Positions 43,817-54,304 of a DNA stretch of 64,000 nt are shown one piece after another. The notes beneath the pieces were generated by a model. That model saw only the letters and a program-made list of their open reading frames with translations, was not told where the DNA came from and did not search any database. The stretch's first letter is position 1, and every line of letters starts with the position of its first letter. Both the position numbers and the translations under genes were made by a program. The DNA is taken from assembly GCA_035506275.1 (NCBI GenBank), contig DATJPT010000019.1:124001-188000 (forward strand), read 5' to 3'. The DNA is from Bacteroidota bacterium (GTDB lineage: Bacteria > Bacteroidota > Ignavibacteria > UBA10030 > UBA8401).

Positions 43817-44509
43817 CTACCCTTCCTCGGTCCTAAGCCTGTATCCGATGCCCGACTCAGTCAGAATCATCTTCGGCTTTGAAGGATCGTCTTCAATTTT
43901 TTTTCGAAGCTGACCGACGTAGATTCGGGTGTACTGCGTCTCGTCGACATACGAGGGCCCCCAGACCTGTTCGAGGATGAAACGATGGGTCAATACCTTC
44001 CCTGCGTTCTTCACGAAAAGGGCGAGGAGCGAATATTCCGTTGCCGTCAGCTTGAGGACGTCGCTCCCTTTTCTCACCACGCGTGCCGAGAGGTTCACGC
44101 TCAGCGTGTCGAGGCTGAATACTTCTTCCTCGGGAAGCGCCGTGCGATGGCGGAGAGCGGTCCGGACGCGCGCGAGCAGCTCGCCCGTGCGGAACGGCTT
44201 CACCAGATAATCGTCCGCCCCCGCCGTCAAGCACCCGACGATGTCGGACTCCGCATTGCGGACGGAGAGGATGATGATCGGTATCGTCGCCCATTCCCGG
44301 ATGGATTTAAGTACGCTCAACCCTTCGATGTCGGGGAGTCCCAAATCGAGAATGATGAGCTCCGGGCGTTCCGTTCCGGCCATCCTCATTCCTTCATTCC
44401 CCGTCAGGGCAAACTTGAGAGCGTAGTTCTGCGGTTCGAGCGTCAGCTCAATAAGGCGGCGGATTTGAATCTCGTCGTCGATGACGAGGACAACAGGTTT
44501 TGTGCTCAC
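43817..44509 (-). CDS. kdpE: KdpE response regulator of the potassium-responsive two-component system
   Basis: 230 residues: receiver domain (1-120) with the acidic pair DDE (11-13), phospho-acceptor Asp55 in LDLGLPD and Lys in LVKPF; winged-helix OmpR-type domain (about 130-228) with LTATEYSLLALFVKNAG and the C-terminal RTEEG. ATG overlaps the kdpD stop by four bases. In E. coli KdpE binds T-rich sites before kdpFABC; here it ends the operon it should control. Confidence 0.95.
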   Translation of the reverse strand: MSTKPVVLVIDDEIQIRRLIELTLEPQNYALKFALTGNEGMRMAGTERPELIILDLGLPDIEGLSVLKSIREWATIPIIILSVRNAESDIVGCLTAGADDYLVKPFRTGELLARVRTALRHRTALPEEEVFSLDTLSVNLSARVVRKGSDVLKLTATEYSLLALFVKNAGKVLTHRFILEQVWGPSYVDETQYTRIYVGQLRKKIEDDPSKPKMILTESGIGYRLRTEEG

Positions 44510-47178
44510 GGCTGTGGAGATGATCCGATGTTCGTGGGAATTCGTAGTGTGAACTCTGCTCCCCCGGAGGGACGGTTTCTCGCGGTCAGCGTCCCTTTAT
44601 GCGCTTCGGCGAAGCCTTTTGCAATGGTCAGGCCGAGGCCCGAGCCGCCGCTTTTCATCCCCTCAGCCCGATAGAATTTTTCGAACACTTTGGGGAGGTC
44701 GTCCTTCGCCAATCCGGATCCGTTGTCCGCAACGACAAAGATGCATTCTTTTTCGACGACCTTGGCTTCGATCGTGATGGAGCTGCCTTCCTGCGTGTGC
44801 ACGGCGGCGTTGTGGACCAGGTTCGTCAGCGCTTGTTCGATCAAGCCGAAGTCCAGTCTGACAAGAGGCATTTCAGCCTGTACTTCGATAATGACAGTGT
44901 GGCGGGAAAGCTCCCTGTCCAGCCCTTTGACCGCCGCGTTGATGAGATCGTGAATGTCGCACCAATCCATTTTCGGCTGGATCATCCCGGACTCAAGCCG
45001 CGACATGTCGAGAAGGTTGGCCACCAGCCGGTTGAGACGCTCGGCAGCGATATGGATTTCTTTCGTATGTTCGTTCGTCGACGTGTGATCCTGCGCGGCA
45101 GAATTCTTCATCAAGTTTTCCGAGGCTCCCATGATCGCGGCGATCGGCGTGCGCAGTTCGTGCGAGATCGAATTGAAGAGGATCTTATACAACCTTTCTG
45201 ATTCGGCGACAACGATCGATTTCTTGTTGACGTCGTTCAATAGTTCCCGCTCCATGGCCGACGCAATTTGAGCGATGAAATTGTCGAGCGATGTCTCCTG
45301 GTCGGTCGTGAGTTTCTCGTCCTTTGGCAGCCGGACACCGATGACGCCGAGCGGATACCGCGGGCCGGAAATCGGGAAATACGTTGCCTCGGCGGACGGA
45401 AGCGTGTCGGTGTATTTTCCGGCTTTTTTCTCATTCCAATATGTCCACGAAGCGACGCCGAATTCCTTCGCGTCGACGGCAAACGAGCTGGCTTCGTGAG
45501 GACGGCTTGAGATCTCTCCGTCCGCTTCACCCAAAATGATGACGACGTCGGCGTTAAAATATTTCTTGATGTTTGAAACCGCCGCCCGGATCACCTCTTC
45601 CTGCGAATGTGCCGATGAGAGGTCGTTGGTCAGGGAAAAAAGCGCGGCGGTCCGCTCTTCCCGCTGACGAACGGCCTGCCCTCTGGCCCGCACACGGGCA
45701 GTAAGGACTCCCGTCACCAGGGCCACGATAAAATAGACGCCGAGCATCATGACGTCTTCGAGCCGGCTTATGGAGAACGTAAAGATCGGCGGGATAAAGA
45801 AAAAATCCCATACGATCGCCCCCGTCGTTGCGGCGACAAGCACCGGTCCAGGGCCCATCTGCAGCGGAAGGAACGAGACCGTCAGCAGGACGATCATCGA
45901 GACCGTCCTGTAACCGATGAGCTGAGAAAACGGGAAGCAGGCAAGCGCAACCACGACCACAATGAGGGGTGCAAGAAGATATTGGGTGGGAGTCGACTGA
46001 ATTTTCGGGATGAAGGTCTTTCTTTTTTCCTGGGAGGACGTGTCCTCTTGACCGACAATGTAGACGTCGACGTTGTGGCTTTTTTCGACGAGGTCTTCGA
46101 TCAATCGCTGCGAGCGGGAGAACATGCTTCGCTTCGATTTTCCCACAAGAATTTGAGTTGCATTCTGTTCCCGTGCGACCCGGATGAGCGCGCTTGCAAC
46201 ATCGTCGTCCGATGTAGTGATGATCTCCGCTCCGAGCTTCCGCGCAAGGACGATATTTTTGGACAATTGCTCCTTGTCGCTCTCGAGCAACGGCGCCGAA
46301 GTCTCCACGCAGACCGCGACCCACGTTCCGTTCATGGTGTAGGCCAGACGGCGGGCCCAACGGAGGACCGATACCGAATGTGGGCTGGCGCTGATACCGA
46401 CGATCAACCGCTGCCCTGATTTCCACGGGCCGGTGATCCGCTCGGTACGCATGTAGTCGCGAAGCTGGTGGTCGACGCGCTCCGCCGTCAGCCGGAGGGA
46501 CATCTCGCGCAGCGCGGTCAGGTTCCCCTTGCGGAAAAAATTCTGGATCGCCTGCTGGGACCGCTCGGGAGTGTAGACCTTTCCTTCTTCCAGCCGTTTC
46601 AATAACTCATCAGGGGGAAGGTCGATTACTTCGACATCGTCGGCCCGCTCGAAGATCGAATCGGGAACAGTCTCCCGAACAAGCGAACCGGTAATTTGTG
46701 CGACGGCATCGGCGCGGCTCTCTAGATGCTGGACGTTCAACGTCGTGTAAACGTCAATCCCGTTGTCGAGAAGTTCCTGGACATCCTGGTACCGTTTCAG
46801 ATGGCGGCTCCCCGGCGCATTGGTGTGTGCGAGCTCGTCGACGAGGACCAGTTTCGGTTTCCGTGCAAGGATCGCGTCAAGGTCCATCTCTTCGATAACG
46901 GAGCCGTGGTATTCGATTTTTTTCCGCGGAACAGCGGGGAGATTGGCAACAAGGGCTTCGGTTTCCGCACGCTTGTGAGTTTCGACAATGCCGATGACAA
47001 CGTCGACTCCATTTGCGAGGGCGGCATGTGCGGTTGCAAGCATGTCGTATGTTTTCCCCACCCCGGCGCACATCCCGAAGAAAATTTTCAGTTTCGCCTT
47101 TGAGGCTTTTTCCTCTTCTTTCCGCAGCACGTTAAGGAGTGCATCGGGGTCCGGGCGGGATTGATCGATCGGGGGCAT
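44506..47178 (-). CDS. kdpD: KdpD sensor histidine kinase
   Basis: 890 residues, complete architecture: N-terminal KdpD domain with Walker A GMCAGVGKT (35-43) and VLVDELAHTN (Walker B-like); a universal-stress-type domain (about 250-370, LIVGISASPHS); four closely spaced helices (about 395-490); a GAF-like segment (about 510-640); HisKA with SHELRTP near 670; HATPase with DNGSGL and GGSGLGLTIA. It senses potassium limitation or turgor and phosphorylates KdpE. It lies 116 bases after kdpB, with a 13-bp hairpin between, and is coupled to kdpE by an ATGA overlap. Confidence 0.96.
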   Translation of the reverse strand: MPPIDQSRPDPDALLNVLRKEEEKASKAKLKIFFGMCAGVGKTYDMLATAHAALANGVDVVIGIVETHKRAETEALVANLPAVPRKKIEYHGSVIEEMDLDAILARKPKLVLVDELAHTNAPGSRHLKRYQDVQELLDNGIDVYTTLNVQHLESRADAVAQITGSLVRETVPDSIFERADDVEVIDLPPDELLKRLEEGKVYTPERSQQAIQNFFRKGNLTALREMSLRLTAERVDHQLRDYMRTERITGPWKSGQRLIVGISASPHSVSVLRWARRLAYTMNGTWVAVCVETSAPLLESDKEQLSKNIVLARKLGAEIITTSDDDVASALIRVAREQNATQILVGKSKRSMFSRSQRLIEDLVEKSHNVDVYIVGQEDTSSQEKRKTFIPKIQSTPTQYLLAPLIVVVVALACFPFSQLIGYRTVSMIVLLTVSFLPLQMGPGPVLVAATTGAIVWDFFFIPPIFTFSISRLEDVMMLGVYFIVALVTGVLTARVRARGQAVRQREERTAALFSLTNDLSSAHSQEEVIRAAVSNIKKYFNADVVIILGEADGEISSRPHEASSFAVDAKEFGVASWTYWNEKKAGKYTDTLPSAEATYFPISGPRYPLGVIGVRLPKDEKLTTDQETSLDNFIAQIASAMERELLNDVNKKSIVVAESERLYKILFNSISHELRTPIAAIMGASENLMKNSAAQDHTSTNEHTKEIHIAAERLNRLVANLLDMSRLESGMIQPKMDWCDIHDLINAAVKGLDRELSRHTVIIEVQAEMPLVRLDFGLIEQALTNLVHNAAVHTQEGSSITIEAKVVEKECIFVVADNGSGLAKDDLPKVFEKFYRAEGMKSGGSGLGLTIAKGFAEAHKGTLTARNRPSGGAEFTLRIPTNIGSSPQP

Positions 47179-47214
47179 ACCGTAATATATTGAATCTTTT
47201 TCAGAGTTTCACAG

Positions 47215-47257
47215 CACAAATCCCGCCAGACGAGTCTCCGAACGGGCGGGATTTGTG
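47215..47257. repeat. Perfect 13-bp inverted repeat (hairpin) between kdpB and kdpD
   Basis: 47215-47227 and 47245-47257 are perfect complements (CACAAATCCCGCC/GGCGGGATTTGTG), loop of 17. There is no T run on the minus strand after it, so it is a poor intrinsic terminator; it may stabilise the 3' end of a processed kdpB transcript and set the amount of kdpDE mRNA. Confidence 0.7.
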
Positions 47258-47294
47258 TGTGTACGTAAGGTGAACCGTTTTGGTATTGCGGTAA

Positions 47295-49394
47295 TTACGT
47301 CAGCCTCAAGGCGACGAGAATCATATCCACCAGCTTGATCCCGAAAAACGGGACGATAATGCCGCCGACGCCGTAGATGAACAAATGTCTTCGCAGAAGC
47401 TGGACAGCGCTGACGGGGCGGTATTTCACTCCTTTTAAGGCGAGTGGAATAAGGGTGATGATAATGAGTGCATTGAAAATGACTGCGGAGAGGATCGCGC
47501 TTTCCGGCGTTGCGAGCCGCATAATATTCAGCGCATTAAGCGCAGGGTACGTCGTTGCGAACGCGGCAGGAATGATGGCGAAGTATTTTGCGACGTCGTT
47601 CGCGATGCTGAACGTCGTCAGCGTTCCGCGCGTCATCAATAATTGTTTGCCGATCTCGACGATTTCCAGCAGCTTGGTCGGATTGCTGTCGAGGTCGATC
47701 ATGTTCGCCGCTTCTCGTGCAGACTGCGTGCCGGTGTTCATCGCAACCGCGACATCTGCCTGAGCGAGCGCCGGCGCATCGTTCGTGCCGTCTCCCGTCA
47801 TCGCGACGAGGCGTCCCCCTTTTTGATAATCGCGGATGAGCTTCAACTTATCTTCCGGTTTTGCTTCCGCAAGGAAGTCGTCAACTCCGGCCTCCGCGGC
47901 AATGGCAGTTGCGGTCAACTGGTTGTCTCCGGTGATCATCACCGTCTTGATTCCCATTTTCCGCAGATGCGCGAAACGCTCCTTGATTCCTCCTTTAACA
48001 ATGTCTTTCAGATGGATCACGCCCAGCACCTCTTTGTTTTCTGCGACAACAAGAGGAGTCGCGCCGGCACGGCTGATATCCTGGACCAATTGCTGCACGG
48101 CGGAGGGAAAGACGCCTCCCGCTTCCTCGATGTAGGATTTCATCGCTTCCGCCGCCCCTTTGCGGATTATTCTTCTTCCGTTCTTTCCTTCCGGCTGGAT
48201 GTCCGCACCGCTCATGCGCGTTTGCGCGCTGAAGGGGACAAAGTGCGCCGAGATTTCATTGACGTTCCGTTCGCGGAGAGCGTACTTTTCTTTTGCGAGG
48301 ACGACGACCGATCGCCCTTCCGGGGTTTCATCCGCGAGTGAAGCAAGCTGGGCGGCATCGGCAAGACGTTCCTTGGAAATGCCGGGAGCCGGAGTGAATT
48401 CCGTTGCCATGCGATTTCCGAGCGTGACAGTACCGGTCTTGTCAAGCAGGAGCACGTCGACGTCCCCCGCAGCTTCGATTGCGCGCCCCGAGGTGGCGAT
48501 CACGTTGTGTCGGATCATTCTGTCCATCCCCGCGATTCCGATTGCGGAAAGGAGCCCGCCGATGGTCGTCGGGATCAAACAAACAAGGAGAGCGACGAGA
48601 ACGGTGACGGTGACCGGCGTTCCCTGGCCTGCGGCTTGCACGCTGAAAAGCGAAAAGGGGAGAAGCGTCACGCAGACCATGAGGAAAATAATCGTGAAGG
48701 CTGCGAGCAGAATATTCAGAGCGATCTCATTCGGAGTTTTCTGCCTTTTTGCTCCTTCTATTAATTTGATCATCCGGTCGAGAAAACCTCCGCCGATTTC
48801 TGTCGTTGCGCGGACGATGAGCCAATCGGACAGGACCCTGGTTCCCCCCGTCACCGCGCTTCTATCACCTCCCGATTCGCGGATCACCGGCGCGCTTTCT
48901 CCCGTGATTGCGCTTTCGTCAACCGATGCGATGCCTTCGATCACCTCGCCGTCGACGGCAATGGTCTCGCCGGTTTCAACGAGGAATACATCCCCCCTCT
49001 GCAGAAGAGTCGAGTTCACGATATCGAAGCCGGATCCCCGTTTGGGACTTTTCAGCCGCTTCGCCTTCGTTTCCTGACGTGCACGCCGAAGTGCTTCCGC
49101 TTGGGCTTTTCCCCGTCCTTCGGCGAGAGCCTCCGAAAAATTGGCGAAGAGCACAGTGAACCAGAGCCAGAGGGAGACGCTGCCGATATACCATGCGGGA
49201 GCCTCACCTTGGCCGAATACTGCCTGAATCCACAAAGCGGTGGTCAGGACGCTTCCAACCTCGACCACGAACATGACCGGGTTGCGAAGCATGGCGCTCG
49301 GATTCAGCTTCACCAACGAATCTATGATCGCCCTGCGGTACATTTCGCCGGTCAGACCAAGAGGTTTTTTCGTCTGGAGCGAGCTCGTCGTCAT
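47295..49394 (-). CDS. kdpB: Potassium-transporting P-type ATPase, ATP-hydrolysing subunit B
   Basis: 699 residues from ATG 49394, chosen for GAAGG a few bases upstream (the frame opens earlier at 49424). P-type ATPase motifs: TGES in AITGESAPV, phosphorylation site [20 protein letters not shown], and [18 protein letters not shown]. Seven helices in the usual places. It couples ATP hydrolysis to potassium import through KdpA. Thirty-one bases separate it from kdpA. Confidence 0.96.
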
Positions 49395-49425
49395 TTTGCC
49401 TTCTTCTTTCGCAGCAATATACATA

Positions 49426-51168
49426 TCAGTGCACCATCATAAAATGTTCGACAATAGGACCAAGAGCAAGAGCCGGCAGGAAGTTCAACGCACCCACGAT
49501 CAGCACGACGGCGACCAGCCAGAAGATGAACAGCGGTGTGTGGGTCGGGAGCGTTCCTTCGCTTACCGGAACAAATTTTTTGCGCACGAGTGAGCCGCCA
49601 AGGGCGAGGGTCGGAACCGCCAGCCAAAATCGCCCGATGATCATCGCTATCCCGCCGGTGATATTGTAAAAAGGCGTGTTTGCGTTTATTCCTGCGAACG
49701 CGCTTCCGTTGTTATTCGCCTGCGATGTAAACACGTACAACACCTCGCTGAAGCCGTGCGGCCCGGGATTAGCTATCGAGCTCGTCCCGGCCGACGTTAC
49801 GACAGCGATGGCGGTGAAGACAAGGACGGTGATCGGCATGATGAGGATGAGAAGCGACGCCATTTTCATTTCATACGTCTCTATTTTATGTCCCAGATAT
49901 TCCGGGGTTCGCCCGACGAGAAGACCGGCAACGAAGACAGCGACGATCACGAAGACGAGCATTCCATACAATCCTGAACCGACACCGCCGAAAACGACCT
50001 CGCCAAAATGGAGCATCACCAGGGTGACGAATCCTCCCAGCGGCGTGAAGGAATCGTGCATTGAATTCACTGAACCGTTGGACGCCGACGTTGTTGCAGT
50101 GGCCCAGACGACTGAATTCGCGATGCCGAACCGAACCTCTTTTCCCTCCATGTTGCCTCCCGGCTGGATGCTGCTCGACGTTTGATCGACCCCCAGAGAG
50201 GCGAATGCCGGATTCCCTTTCTCTTCCGACCATCCGGCAAGAGCGAGAAATGCAATAAAGATGATCATCATCGCCGCATAGATTGACCACCCTTGCTTCG
50301 TATCCTTCACCATGTGGCCGTAGGTGTAGCAGAGTGCGGCTGCAATAAGAAGAATCGCGAGCATCTCGAGGAAATCGGAAAGAGGTGTCGGGTTCTCGAA
50401 CGGATGGGCCGAATTAACGTTGAAGAAGCCCCCTCCGTTTGTGCCGAGTTGTTTGATGGCGATCTGAGACGCCGCCGGGCCCATTGCCACAATTTGCTCT
50501 GTGACCTTAGCTCCTGCCGTGTCCGCCGTCGGCTGCAAAAGAGGGACGGAGACGTACGGGGAAAGGTTTTGCACCGATCCCTGCGAAACAAGGACAAGCG
50601 CAAAGACAATGGAGAGCGGAAGAAGAATGTACAAAGTGGTTCGGGTCATATCCACCCAAAAGTTGCCGAGCGTCTTTGCCGAATGCCTGGCAAGCCCGCG
50701 GATGAACAAGGCAAGGATCGCCATGCCTGTTGCCGCGGAGACAAAATTCTGGACCGTCAACGCGAGCATTTGCGTCAAGTAGCTCATCGTTGTTTCACCG
50801 CCGTACCCCTGCCAGTTCGTGTTGGTTGCGAAACTGACCGCGGTGTTGAAGGATGAATCCGGCGAAACGGCGGTCATACTCTGCGGATTCAACGGCAGGT
50901 ACTGCTGGATCCGCTGCAGCAGATATACGATCAAAAGACCGGCAAAATTGAAGAGCAGCATCGCGATCGCGTTCTCTTTCCAGTCAAATTCTTCGTCCGG
51001 ATTGATGTTTGCCAGCCGATAGATCAAGCGCTCGAGCGGGCCGATGACAGGGTCGAGAAAGGTCCGCTCTCTCTGGTACACTTTGGCCATGAATAGCCCG
51101 AGCGGTTTCACTGCAAGGGTGAGGGCCGCCAGATAAAAAGCTATCTGCAAAATTCCATTAAGTGTCAT
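49426..51168 (-). CDS. kdpA: Potassium-transporting ATPase, ion-channel-like subunit A
   Basis: 580 residues, about ten helices. Diagnostic KdpA text: [20 protein letters not shown] (selectivity-filter repeat), [19 protein letters not shown] in part, and [16 protein letters not shown]. The start ATG overlaps the kdpF stop as ATGA, so the two are translationally coupled. It binds and passes potassium with micromolar affinity in the Kdp complex. Confidence 0.96.
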
Positions 51169-51257
51169 TCAAATGTCTCCGGTTTTAATAGCACGATGAA
51201 GAGGTAGATCAGAAGGCCGACGGAAATCAGCCCGGAAACGATATAGAGCCAGTTCAT
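51165..51257 (-). CDS. kdpF: KdpF, 30-residue stabilising subunit of the Kdp ATPase
   Basis: Read on the minus strand as MNWLYIVSGLISVGLLIYLF followed by [10 protein letters not shown]: one membrane helix and the conserved short tail L-K-P-E-x-F that identifies KdpF. The stop overlaps kdpA by four bases and the start overlaps the stop of the next small gene (ATGA again). Too short for routine gene finding. Confidence 0.92.
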   Translation of the reverse strand: MNWLYIVSGLISVGLLIYLFIVLLKPETFE

Positions 51258-51364
51258 GTGTTCTCTCCCGATTTAAATTCGCCGAGATTTTCACAAAGCT
51301 TCATTAATCCCCAGGTCAGCAGGAACGATGCCGCGACAATGCCGAGATAAATAAGATCTTCCAC
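51254..51364 (-). CDS. Small one-helix membrane protein encoded between kdpC and kdpF, 36 residues
   Basis: GTG start at 51364 with an excellent AGGAG site seven bases upstream; the product reads MEDLIYLGIVAASFLLTWGL then MKLCENLGEFKSGENT. It has one helix (about 4-22) and a short soluble tail, like KdpF in size but without its K-P-E motif. Its stop overlaps the kdpF start (51254-51257), and it starts two bases downstream of the kdpC stop, so it is embedded in the operon and surely translated with it. I cannot name it; a Kdp accessory subunit is the natural inference. Confidence 0.8.
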   Translation of the reverse strand: MEDLIYLGIVAASFLLTWGLMKLCENLGEFKSGENT

Positions 51365-51365
51365 T

Positions 51366-51959
51366 TTATTTCTCCTTTGGCGAAGATTGAATTTCATCAA
51401 GTGCGAGATTGAGTTTTAAGACGTTTACACGCGGTTCTCCCAGAAAACCGAGCTGTCTTCCTTCCGTGGCCTGACCGACGAGGGACCGAACCTGCTCTGC
51501 GCTCAGTCCGCGAACACGTGCCACGCGGGGAGCCTGATACAACGCGGCCGCAACGCTGATATGCGGGTCGAGTCCGCTTGCTGAAGCCGTTACAAGGTCG
51601 ACGGGGATCGGCTGCGTGTTGAGTGAATCGACGGCTTTAAGATCCTGGACCCTTTTTTTGACGGCGTCAATAAGGGCGGGATTCAACGGCCCGTAATTTG
51701 ACCCTGAAGATGATCCGGCATTGTACGCGTACGGGCTCGTAGCCGAAAGCCGGCTCCAGAAATATTGCGGAGCGCTGAACGGTTGCCCGATGAGCTCGGA
51801 GCCGGTGATTTTTCCATCCTTCTTCATAAAGCTTCCGTTCGCTTTATCCGGAAAGATCATCTGGGCGATCCCCGTCACGACGAGCGGATACGCGATGCCG
51901 GTCAGGATGGTAAAGAGAACAAGAAGCACAAGTGTCGGTCGAAGCTGCTTTTTAAGCAT
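51366..51959 (-). CDS. kdpC: Potassium-transporting ATPase subunit C
   Basis: 197 residues from ATG 51959, with AGGA seven bases upstream. N-terminal helix (about 8-30: [20 protein letters not shown]) and a periplasmic domain with the KdpC phrases [40 protein letters not shown] and ARVRGLS. It acts as a catalytic chaperone for ATP binding to KdpB. Its position is unusual: canonical operons run kdpF-A-B-C, whereas here kdpC comes first and kdpB is followed directly by kdpD. Confidence 0.95.
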
Positions 51960-52185
51960 TATTATTCCTGTCATTGTTTCCTGAGAATTTCATTTGCATG
52001 TGTCCGATCTGGGCCGCAAAATGTCCAAGCCGGGCATGAGTGATTTCCTTCTCCGGATCATAATCAGGGGAAGGATGTTCATTGGTTTCCGTTGCATGAC
52101 TTGACTTCTCCCCCTCTTTCCAGGAGAAGTAGGTATGCGCGAGATACGTAAGCACGAGAGCCATGGCGAAGATGATTCCTGACAT
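51952..52185 (-). CDS. Small membrane protein at the head of the kdp operon, 77 residues
   Basis: ATG 52185 opens [20 protein letters not shown], one helix, followed by a charged soluble tail rich in His, Glu and Lys ([33 protein letters not shown]). The stop overlaps the kdpC start by eight bases, which argues for coupling and against chance. No ribosome binding site is apparent, in keeping with a leader-proximal gene in this group. No family recognised; the His-rich tail is notable. Either an accessory Kdp protein or a small regulator. Confidence 0.65.
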
Positions 52186-53188: not shown

Positions 53189-54304
53189 ATGGCACAACCT
53201 CACGCGAAAATTCTCATCGTCGACGACGAACCCGATCTGCTGGAGATCACGGCAGCATATCTGGAGATGGAAGGATACGTTCCTCTCTCGGCGCTGAACG
53301 GTCCCGCAGCGCTGGAAATTCTTAATTCCACCGTACCCGACCTTATCATTTCCGATATCACGATGCCGGGGATGAGCGGATTTGATCTGTTCGGGAAGGT
53401 CCGTTCCGACCCCCGCCTGCAGAACACGCCGTTCATTTTTCTCTCCGGTCATACCGACCTCCAGCACATCATGGCCGGCAAGGAACTCGGCAGTGACGAT
53501 TACCTGATGAAGCCGTACGAACCCGAGATGTTGATCTCCACGATCAAAGGGAAGCTGAAACGAAGCCAGCAGTTGAGCGATTCGATTTCGCATCAGATGG
53601 ATGAGCTGAAGAATCAATTGTTCCATCTCATCTCGCACGAAATGCGCACGCCGCTGACGTCGATTCTCGGGGCGGCCGATATTCTCTCCGCCGATAAGGA
53701 GAAATTGTCCCCCGAGGATTTCACTGAATTTTTACAGATGCTGAAGGTCGGGACACTGAGGCTTAACAGGATGGTGGAGGACTTCTTGCTTGTCGTACGG
53801 ATCGAATCCGGAGAAGCGGCGAAGGATATCGAGTTCCGGAACGCGACCATTTCACCCTTCGAGATCGTGAACCGATTTGCCTCGGTGAGCGAGGACATAA
53901 AGAAGAACAAAGGGATCACGCTCAAGATCGAGGTTCCGGACGAATCTCAGGCTCTCTTTATTCATCCGCCGCATTTCGAGGACATCGTTGCCCGCTTGTT
54001 CGACAATGCCTGCAAGTTCGCTCCCCCCGGCGCCGTTGTCACGATCGCCTCGCGGGACGAGAAGGATCAATACGTGATTACCATCGCGGACAACGGGAAC
54101 GGCATTCCGCGGGAAAAGCAGGATCGTCTGTTCGAAAAATTCTATCAGGTGGATCGGGAAGCGCAGGAGCAGCAAGGGGCAGGGTTGGGGCTCTACATCG
54201 CGAAGCGACTGGCGGAGCTCAATAAGTGCAGATTATGGTGTGAGAGCGATCGGGGGATGGGGGCTGTGTTTAATCTATCCATTCCCAAGAAAATCTCCCT
54301 CTGA
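53189..54304 (+). CDS. Receiver domain-histidine kinase fusion protein (soluble)
   Basis: 371 residues, no membrane helix. Receiver at 5-125 with VDDEPD, phospho-acceptor Asp56 in ISDITMPG and Lys in LMKPYEPE; a coiled-coil link (125-140); HisKA with phospho-His150 in LISHEMRTPL; HATPase with NACKFAPP, ADNGNGIP and GAGLGLYIAKRL. In this reversed order the kinase is probably controlled by phosphorylation of its own receiver. No cognate regulator or sensor gene is adjacent, so its partners are elsewhere. Confidence 0.93.
   Translation: MAQPHAKILIVDDEPDLLEITAAYLEMEGYVPLSALNGPAALEILNSTVPDLIISDITMPGMSGFDLFGKVRSDPRLQNTPFIFLSGHTDLQHIMAGKELGSDDYLMKPYEPEMLISTIKGKLKRSQQLSDSISHQMDELKNQLFHLISHEMRTPLTSILGAADILSADKEKLSPEDFTEFLQMLKVGTLRLNRMVEDFLLVVRIESGEAAKDIEFRNATISPFEIVNRFASVSEDIKKNKGITLKIEVPDESQALFIHPPHFEDIVARLFDNACKFAPPGAVVTIASRDEKDQYVITIADNGNGIPREKQDRLFEKFYQVDREAQEQQGAGLGLYIAKRLAELNKCRLWCESDRGMGAVFNLSIPKKISL

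Follow-up and report, generated by a model that had tools for sequence, protein, structure and literature searches.

KdpFABC is a textbook hybrid of a P-type ATPase and a channel. The structural and mechanistic studies considered here, cryo-EM included, were conducted with the E. coli complex, in which the small subunit KdpF has been described as a lipid-like stabilizer. Other short single-span helices that stabilize or tune a larger membrane complex are CydX, AcrZ, TorE/NapE, and MgrB. A 1997 study of C. acetobutylicum reportedly described orfZ and orfY, two small hydrophobic peptides encoded before kdpA, and we know of no work in which they were followed up or generalized. The operon of this bacterium is written kdpZYABCXDE (PMC5401905). 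For M. smegmatis and C. crescentus, two reports give kdp mRNAs (mapped or inferred) with about 100–120 nt before kdpF that are regarded as untranslated (PMC5401905, PMC8552747); these stretches match in size the gene described below, hereafter called ORF X.

ORF X is located in a window of 64,000 nucleotides of a Bacteroidota genome, the whole stretch of DNA analyzed here, in which the kdp operon (44506–51974) has the order kdpC-X-kdpF-kdpA-kdpB-kdpD. This arrangement, with kdpC first as opposed to the usual kdpFABC, is common to relatives in the same taxonomic order. The features are as follows.

Positions 51366–51974, minus strand: kdpC, 202 aa (PF02669, 9e-77).
Positions 51372–51377, minus strand: Shine-Dalgarno sequence AAGGAG of ORF X, 7 nt before the GTG, within the 3′ end of kdpC.
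Positions 51254–51364, minus strand: ORF X, GTG start, 36 aa, a predicted single-span membrane protein, member of a kdp-linked family.
Positions 51254–51257, minus strand: the sequence ATGA, in which the stop codon of ORF X (TGA) overlaps the start codon of kdpF (ATG).
Positions 51165–51257, minus strand: kdpF, 30 aa, ending in LLKPETFE (PF09604, 6e-09; TIGR02115, 1.5e-10).
Positions 49426–51168, minus strand: kdpA, 580 aa (PF03814, 2e-243).
Positions 47295–49424, minus strand: kdpB, 709 aa (TIGR01497, 1058.6 bits).
Positions 44506–47178, minus strand: kdpD, 890 aa (PF02702, 2.6e-97).

Divergent from the operon, at 53189–54304, a response-regulator plus histidine-kinase protein is encoded, which adjoins an inositol-monophosphatase gene and is a possible regulator. 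The window's own genome also contains a second, truncated KdpA C-terminal piece (G000:C20:5376-5564, locus L135; profile positions 486–548, in a 154-aa open frame).

An earlier note, written from the letters of this DNA, had drawn attention to a 36-residue membrane ORF between kdpC and kdpF with an excellent ribosome-binding site, starting just past kdpC and overlapping kdpF by four bases, and our analysis bears out the gene, its slot, its signals, and its single predicted helix. The kdpC stop codon ends at 51366, leaving a single base (51365) before ORF X, and the ATGA overlap at the other end suggests translational coupling of ORF X to kdpF. The product (translation of 51364–51254, minus strand) is VEDLIYLGIVAASFLLTWGLMKLCENLGEFKSGENT, 36 aa, for which AlphaFold2 gives one helix at residues 2–33 of the 35 supplied, with a mean pLDDT of 89. 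The window protein matches no Pfam or NCBIfam family and has no significant PDB match, and comparison of ORF X and a 40-member alignment of the family with Pfam, NCBIfam, PHROGs, and PDB sequences returned just scattered weak matches to single members. The family models of CydX, AcrZ, TorE/NapE, and MgrB, which act on other partners, are likewise not matched.

The earlier note had named a lack of conservation in relatives with the same operon order as the observation that would speak against its proposal; the opposite is found, since most bacterial kdp operons keep both the sequence of ORF X and its place. Matches were detected in 20 of 60 related genomes, the strong ones in kdpC-X-kdpF-kdpA loci. 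ORF X occupies this same slot in the window and in 13 relatives from the same order (31–77% identity to the window protein; in one of the 14 loci, L014, the contig starts just before ORF X, so that kdpC is absent there), and in all seven genomes of the window's phylum with E below 1e-4, ORF X stands directly before kdpA. A scan of species genomes for KdpA yielded 80 loci from Bacteroidota, Chloroflexota, Nitrospirota, Acidobacteriota, Planctomycetota, Pseudomonadota, Magnetococcales, and FCPU426, and nearly all of them contain, just 5′ of kdpF, a hydrophobic ORF of 26–36 aa that aligns almost gap-free with ORF X. An alignment of 71 members, which span several phyla and line up with hardly any gap, has the consensus M-x0/1-D-[LI]-[IL]-[YF]-L-x5-F-F-x2-[TSC]-x2-[LYF]-x2-[AG]-C-[ED]-[RK]-L, in which D (66/71), FF, [TSC], and C-[ED]-[RK]-L are near-invariant and L27 is found in 61/71. 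The window protein shows D3, F14 (the first F being S), T17, and C24-E25-N26-L27, differing at two motif positions with no gaps, ends in L-C-E-N-L followed by a polar tail, and belongs to the family also by its location beside kdpF in a kdp operon. The pattern proposed at first sight, a helix followed by K-L-C-E, holds in that a motif after the helix is conserved, but K-L-C-E is the local form of [AG]-C-[ED]-[RK]-L, and the pattern extends to an acidic residue before the helix.

The family reaches well beyond these genomes. ORF X is present in plasmid-borne operons of Rhizobium, Caballeronia, Acetobacter, Methylocystis, Deinococcus, Subdoligranulum, Bacillus badius, and Nonomuraea, and is annotated in none of the eight, some of the records carrying no annotation at all; a tblastn search of plasmids with the window's ORF X alone, a short query, gave no match. 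By eye or by weak score it is recognized in Listeria innocua, Niallia, Streptomyces, Rhodococcus, and Arthrobacter (annotated in the last as a 65-aa “hypothetical protein”). Actinomycetota, Bacillota, and Deinococcota also have it, mostly unannotated. ORF X precedes kdpF in the clostridial Subdoligranulum (L146) and also in Deinococcus (L144, L281), although the rest is rearranged there to kdpB-X-kdpF-kdpA-kdpC, while in two Pseudomonadota loci (L222, L240) it lies between kdpF and kdpA, still within the operon. Bacteroidia have at the equivalent place a protein of 26–28 aa ending in F-F-[ED]-K-I, which is a probable relative of ORF X, being linked by its position and by a 50% profile match to the main family over 24 in-register columns. 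E. coli, Lactiplantibacillus, and Halobacterium have no ORF X. Over at least eight phyla, most of the sampled bacteria have this unnamed family in their kdp operon, from which it is missing in E. coli. As a separate observation, Rhizobium beringeri plasmid pRlX3 (L137, 2914–3069) has a 51-aa ORF between kdpA and kdpB labeled “phosphoenolpyruvate carboxylase”; the label is very likely wrong, and the ORF may be a further small kdp gene.

In an HMM survey of 153 kdpA loci, ORF X was found in 138 and KdpF in 150, and ORF X never occurred without KdpF. The survey model was seeded from the kdp slot, a bias most of which is answered by loci held out of model building (59/74 positive) and by whole-genome scans with the ORF X profile (E ≤ 0.01), made regardless of kdp. 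In Pseudomonadota, Acidobacteriota, and Chloroflexota together, 78 of the 83 places matched by the profile lie on the same strand as a KdpA match and 116–524 nt upstream of it. For Pseudomonadota, 38 of 200 genomes are matched at 39 places, 38 of which precede a KdpA match by 122–380 nt in the same orientation, and the sole exception (G492) has ORF X at a contig end, followed by kdpF. The corresponding figures are 20/23 for Acidobacteriota and 20/21 for Chloroflexota; the four exceptions are weak (E > 0.001), three being in genomes with no KdpA match and one in a genome (G660) with kdpA on another contig. The association of ORF X with kdpA at the genome level has p values of 5e-20 (Pseudomonadota), 4e-12 (Acidobacteriota), and 2e-11 (Chloroflexota) by Fisher tests, in which shared ancestry is ignored. 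The family is Kdp-specific. Among the 32 Pseudomonadota genomes that have kdpA and no match to the ORF X profile, about half contain a diverged ORF X by eye, and the two with the order kdpF-X-kdpA (L222, L240) belong to this set; loci of enteric type and Pseudomonas type (typed by KdpF sequence) and those of Methylomonas show no recognizable ORF X. Three loci, L148 (Trichormus), L150 (an Acinetobacter plasmid), and L260, have kdpA with neither KdpF nor ORF X detectable upstream, and in two Bacteroidota contigs (G096:C26, G213:C12) more than one kdpA copy is found close together, just one copy having ORF X by profile.

Given a very short frame with a non-ATG start in the window, ORF X might be taken for a chance ORF or an annotation artefact. 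This reading is refuted by the conservation and the held slot together with three further results, and its probability is negligible: when these regions were read on the reverse strand, nothing matched ORF X or KdpF above 10 bits; a Shine-Dalgarno core precedes 66% of the ORF X genes versus 8% of random positions; and pN/pS over 158 moderately diverged pairs is 0.32 for ORF X, compared with 0.24 for KdpF and 0.17 for KdpA. ORF X is under purifying selection. The same value bears on the idea that ORF X serves as a leader peptide or an upstream ORF, of which the translation, and not the product, controls the expression of kdpF and kdpA. The location directly upstream, the strong ribosome-binding site, the 4-nt overlap, and the M. 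smegmatis and C. crescentus mRNAs speak for such a role. For a leader, however, no amino-acid selection beyond regulatory codons is expected, whereas the amino-acid sequence of ORF X is kept between phyla under a hydrophobic-helix constraint; moreover, L222 and L240 have the two genes in the opposite order, and the exact 4-nt overlap found in 48 of 130 loci gives way to an X–kdpF spacing of up to 189–221 nt in some others. We regard a leader role as very improbable. The net charge of the family averages −0.88 on the N-terminal side of the helix and +0.79 on the C-terminal side, so that an N-out/C-in orientation is predicted. ORF X is best read as a genuine, translated single-span inner-membrane protein.

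ORF X resembles KdpF (PF09604/TIGR02115) in having 27–36 aa, one transmembrane helix, a likely N-out/C-in topology, and a place in the kdp operon, and both are probably coupled translationally to the next kdp gene. That likeness, noted earlier together with the missing tail motif, invites the reading that ORF X is a second, diverged KdpF copy: size, helix number, and adjacency all agree, and one of 40 members weakly matches a KdpF model (E 0.017). Nevertheless, the two families are distinct at the profile level. The hhalign probability of their alignment is 8% and 1%, all 30 KdpF rows match PF09604 whereas none of the 40 ORF X members do, and the Bacteroidia proteins are likewise unlike KdpF. 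The KdpF tail motif A-L-[LI]-x-P-E-x-F is not present in the window protein, the family ending in C-[ED]-[RK]-L instead of KPExF and having an acidic residue before the helix; ORF X differs also in its place before kdpF or, at two loci, between kdpF and kdpA, and in its absence from E. coli. A diverged KdpF copy is thus scarcely credible, and identity of ORF X with KdpF itself was rejected on the low profile probability, the other motif and slot, and the true kdpF adjoining it. The helices of ORF X and KdpF may still have a remote common origin.

Our preferred reading, to which we assign a probability of roughly 0.7, is that ORF X encodes a fifth, KdpF-like, single-span accessory subunit of KdpFABC that would bind the pump physically. 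The subunit would be made in step with KdpF and KdpA through translational coupling, and its helix would insert N-out/C-in, with the acidic residue outside and the basic tail inside. It may pack on the membrane core of KdpA, KdpB, and KdpC at a site other than that of KdpF, its conserved [C][ED][RK]L end lying at the cytoplasmic face, and could stabilize the assembly or tune how the pump is coupled or inhibited. Lipid or altered subunit surfaces might replace it in lineages without ORF X, such as E. coli; several of these have a full kdpFABC, so that ORF X is not essential to pumping everywhere. Covariation between ORF X and KdpA across 121 loci (effective number 55) gave top scores no better than permutations, as was also the case for KdpF, which shows the test to lack power here.

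The same protein could instead be a regulatory membrane peptide that, like MgrB on PhoQ, binds KdpD (as sensor or as serine kinase) or adjusts the inhibition of KdpB. Small single-span proteins often regulate kinases or pumps, ORF X is encoded together with kdpD in the window and at many loci, and its loss in several lineages fits a tuning role. Yet its presence is independent of KdpD, which occurs without ORF X in L101 and L125, and Deinococcus has ORF X despite a separate USP-type ASK gene after the pump and a split control system; the constant pairing with kdpF and the likely translational coupling also fit a fixed stoichiometry with the pump. Its independence of KdpD and its pairing with kdpF throughout favor the subunit, and a regulator appears unlikely to us. 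The earlier proposal of “an undescribed subunit or regulator of the pump” therefore stands as regards a Kdp-specific protein distinct from KdpF, between whose two roles sequence cannot choose, but “undescribed” may not be strictly true in view of orfZ and orfY. These two C. acetobutylicum genes have the layout expected for ORF X and kdpF, a likeness by description, and OrfZ (“kdpZ”) is probably an earlier sighting of ORF X. Apart from this mention of kdpZ, full-text literature searches returned no name or description of ORF X, and the searched passages of kdp papers on Caulobacter, Deinococcus, and Streptomyces mention no gene like it.

In a KdpA tree of 153 rows, of FastTree quality and with some long branches, ORF X occurs on both sides of the midpoint root, its absences require at least seven changes, and E. 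coli and Methylomonas branch from within lineages that have ORF X; even without Bacteroidia, ORF X remains represented on the root's other side by Bacillota and Deinococcota. ORF X is likely ancestral by this distribution, with repeated loss (E. coli, a Pseudomonas-like lineage, Methylomonas). We considered whether its loss goes together with that of Pro from the tail of KdpF and dropped the idea, which agrees with the E. coli, Pseudomonas-like, and Lactiplantibacillus loci and not with others. On balance, we lean toward the view that most bacterial Kdp pumps are five-subunit and that the E. coli KdpFABC is a reduced form, from which an ancestral second small transmembrane subunit has been secondarily lost.

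Most bacteria thus probably have an extra small pump part that has been overlooked. Of the annotated records checked, most do not list ORF X, and one profile could correct annotation pipelines. If most Kdp pumps do contain an extra conserved helix, current models of how the pump assembles, seals its ion path, and is inhibited would rest on an atypical member, and a second helix would offer a comparison for the role of KdpF, usually called lipid-like.
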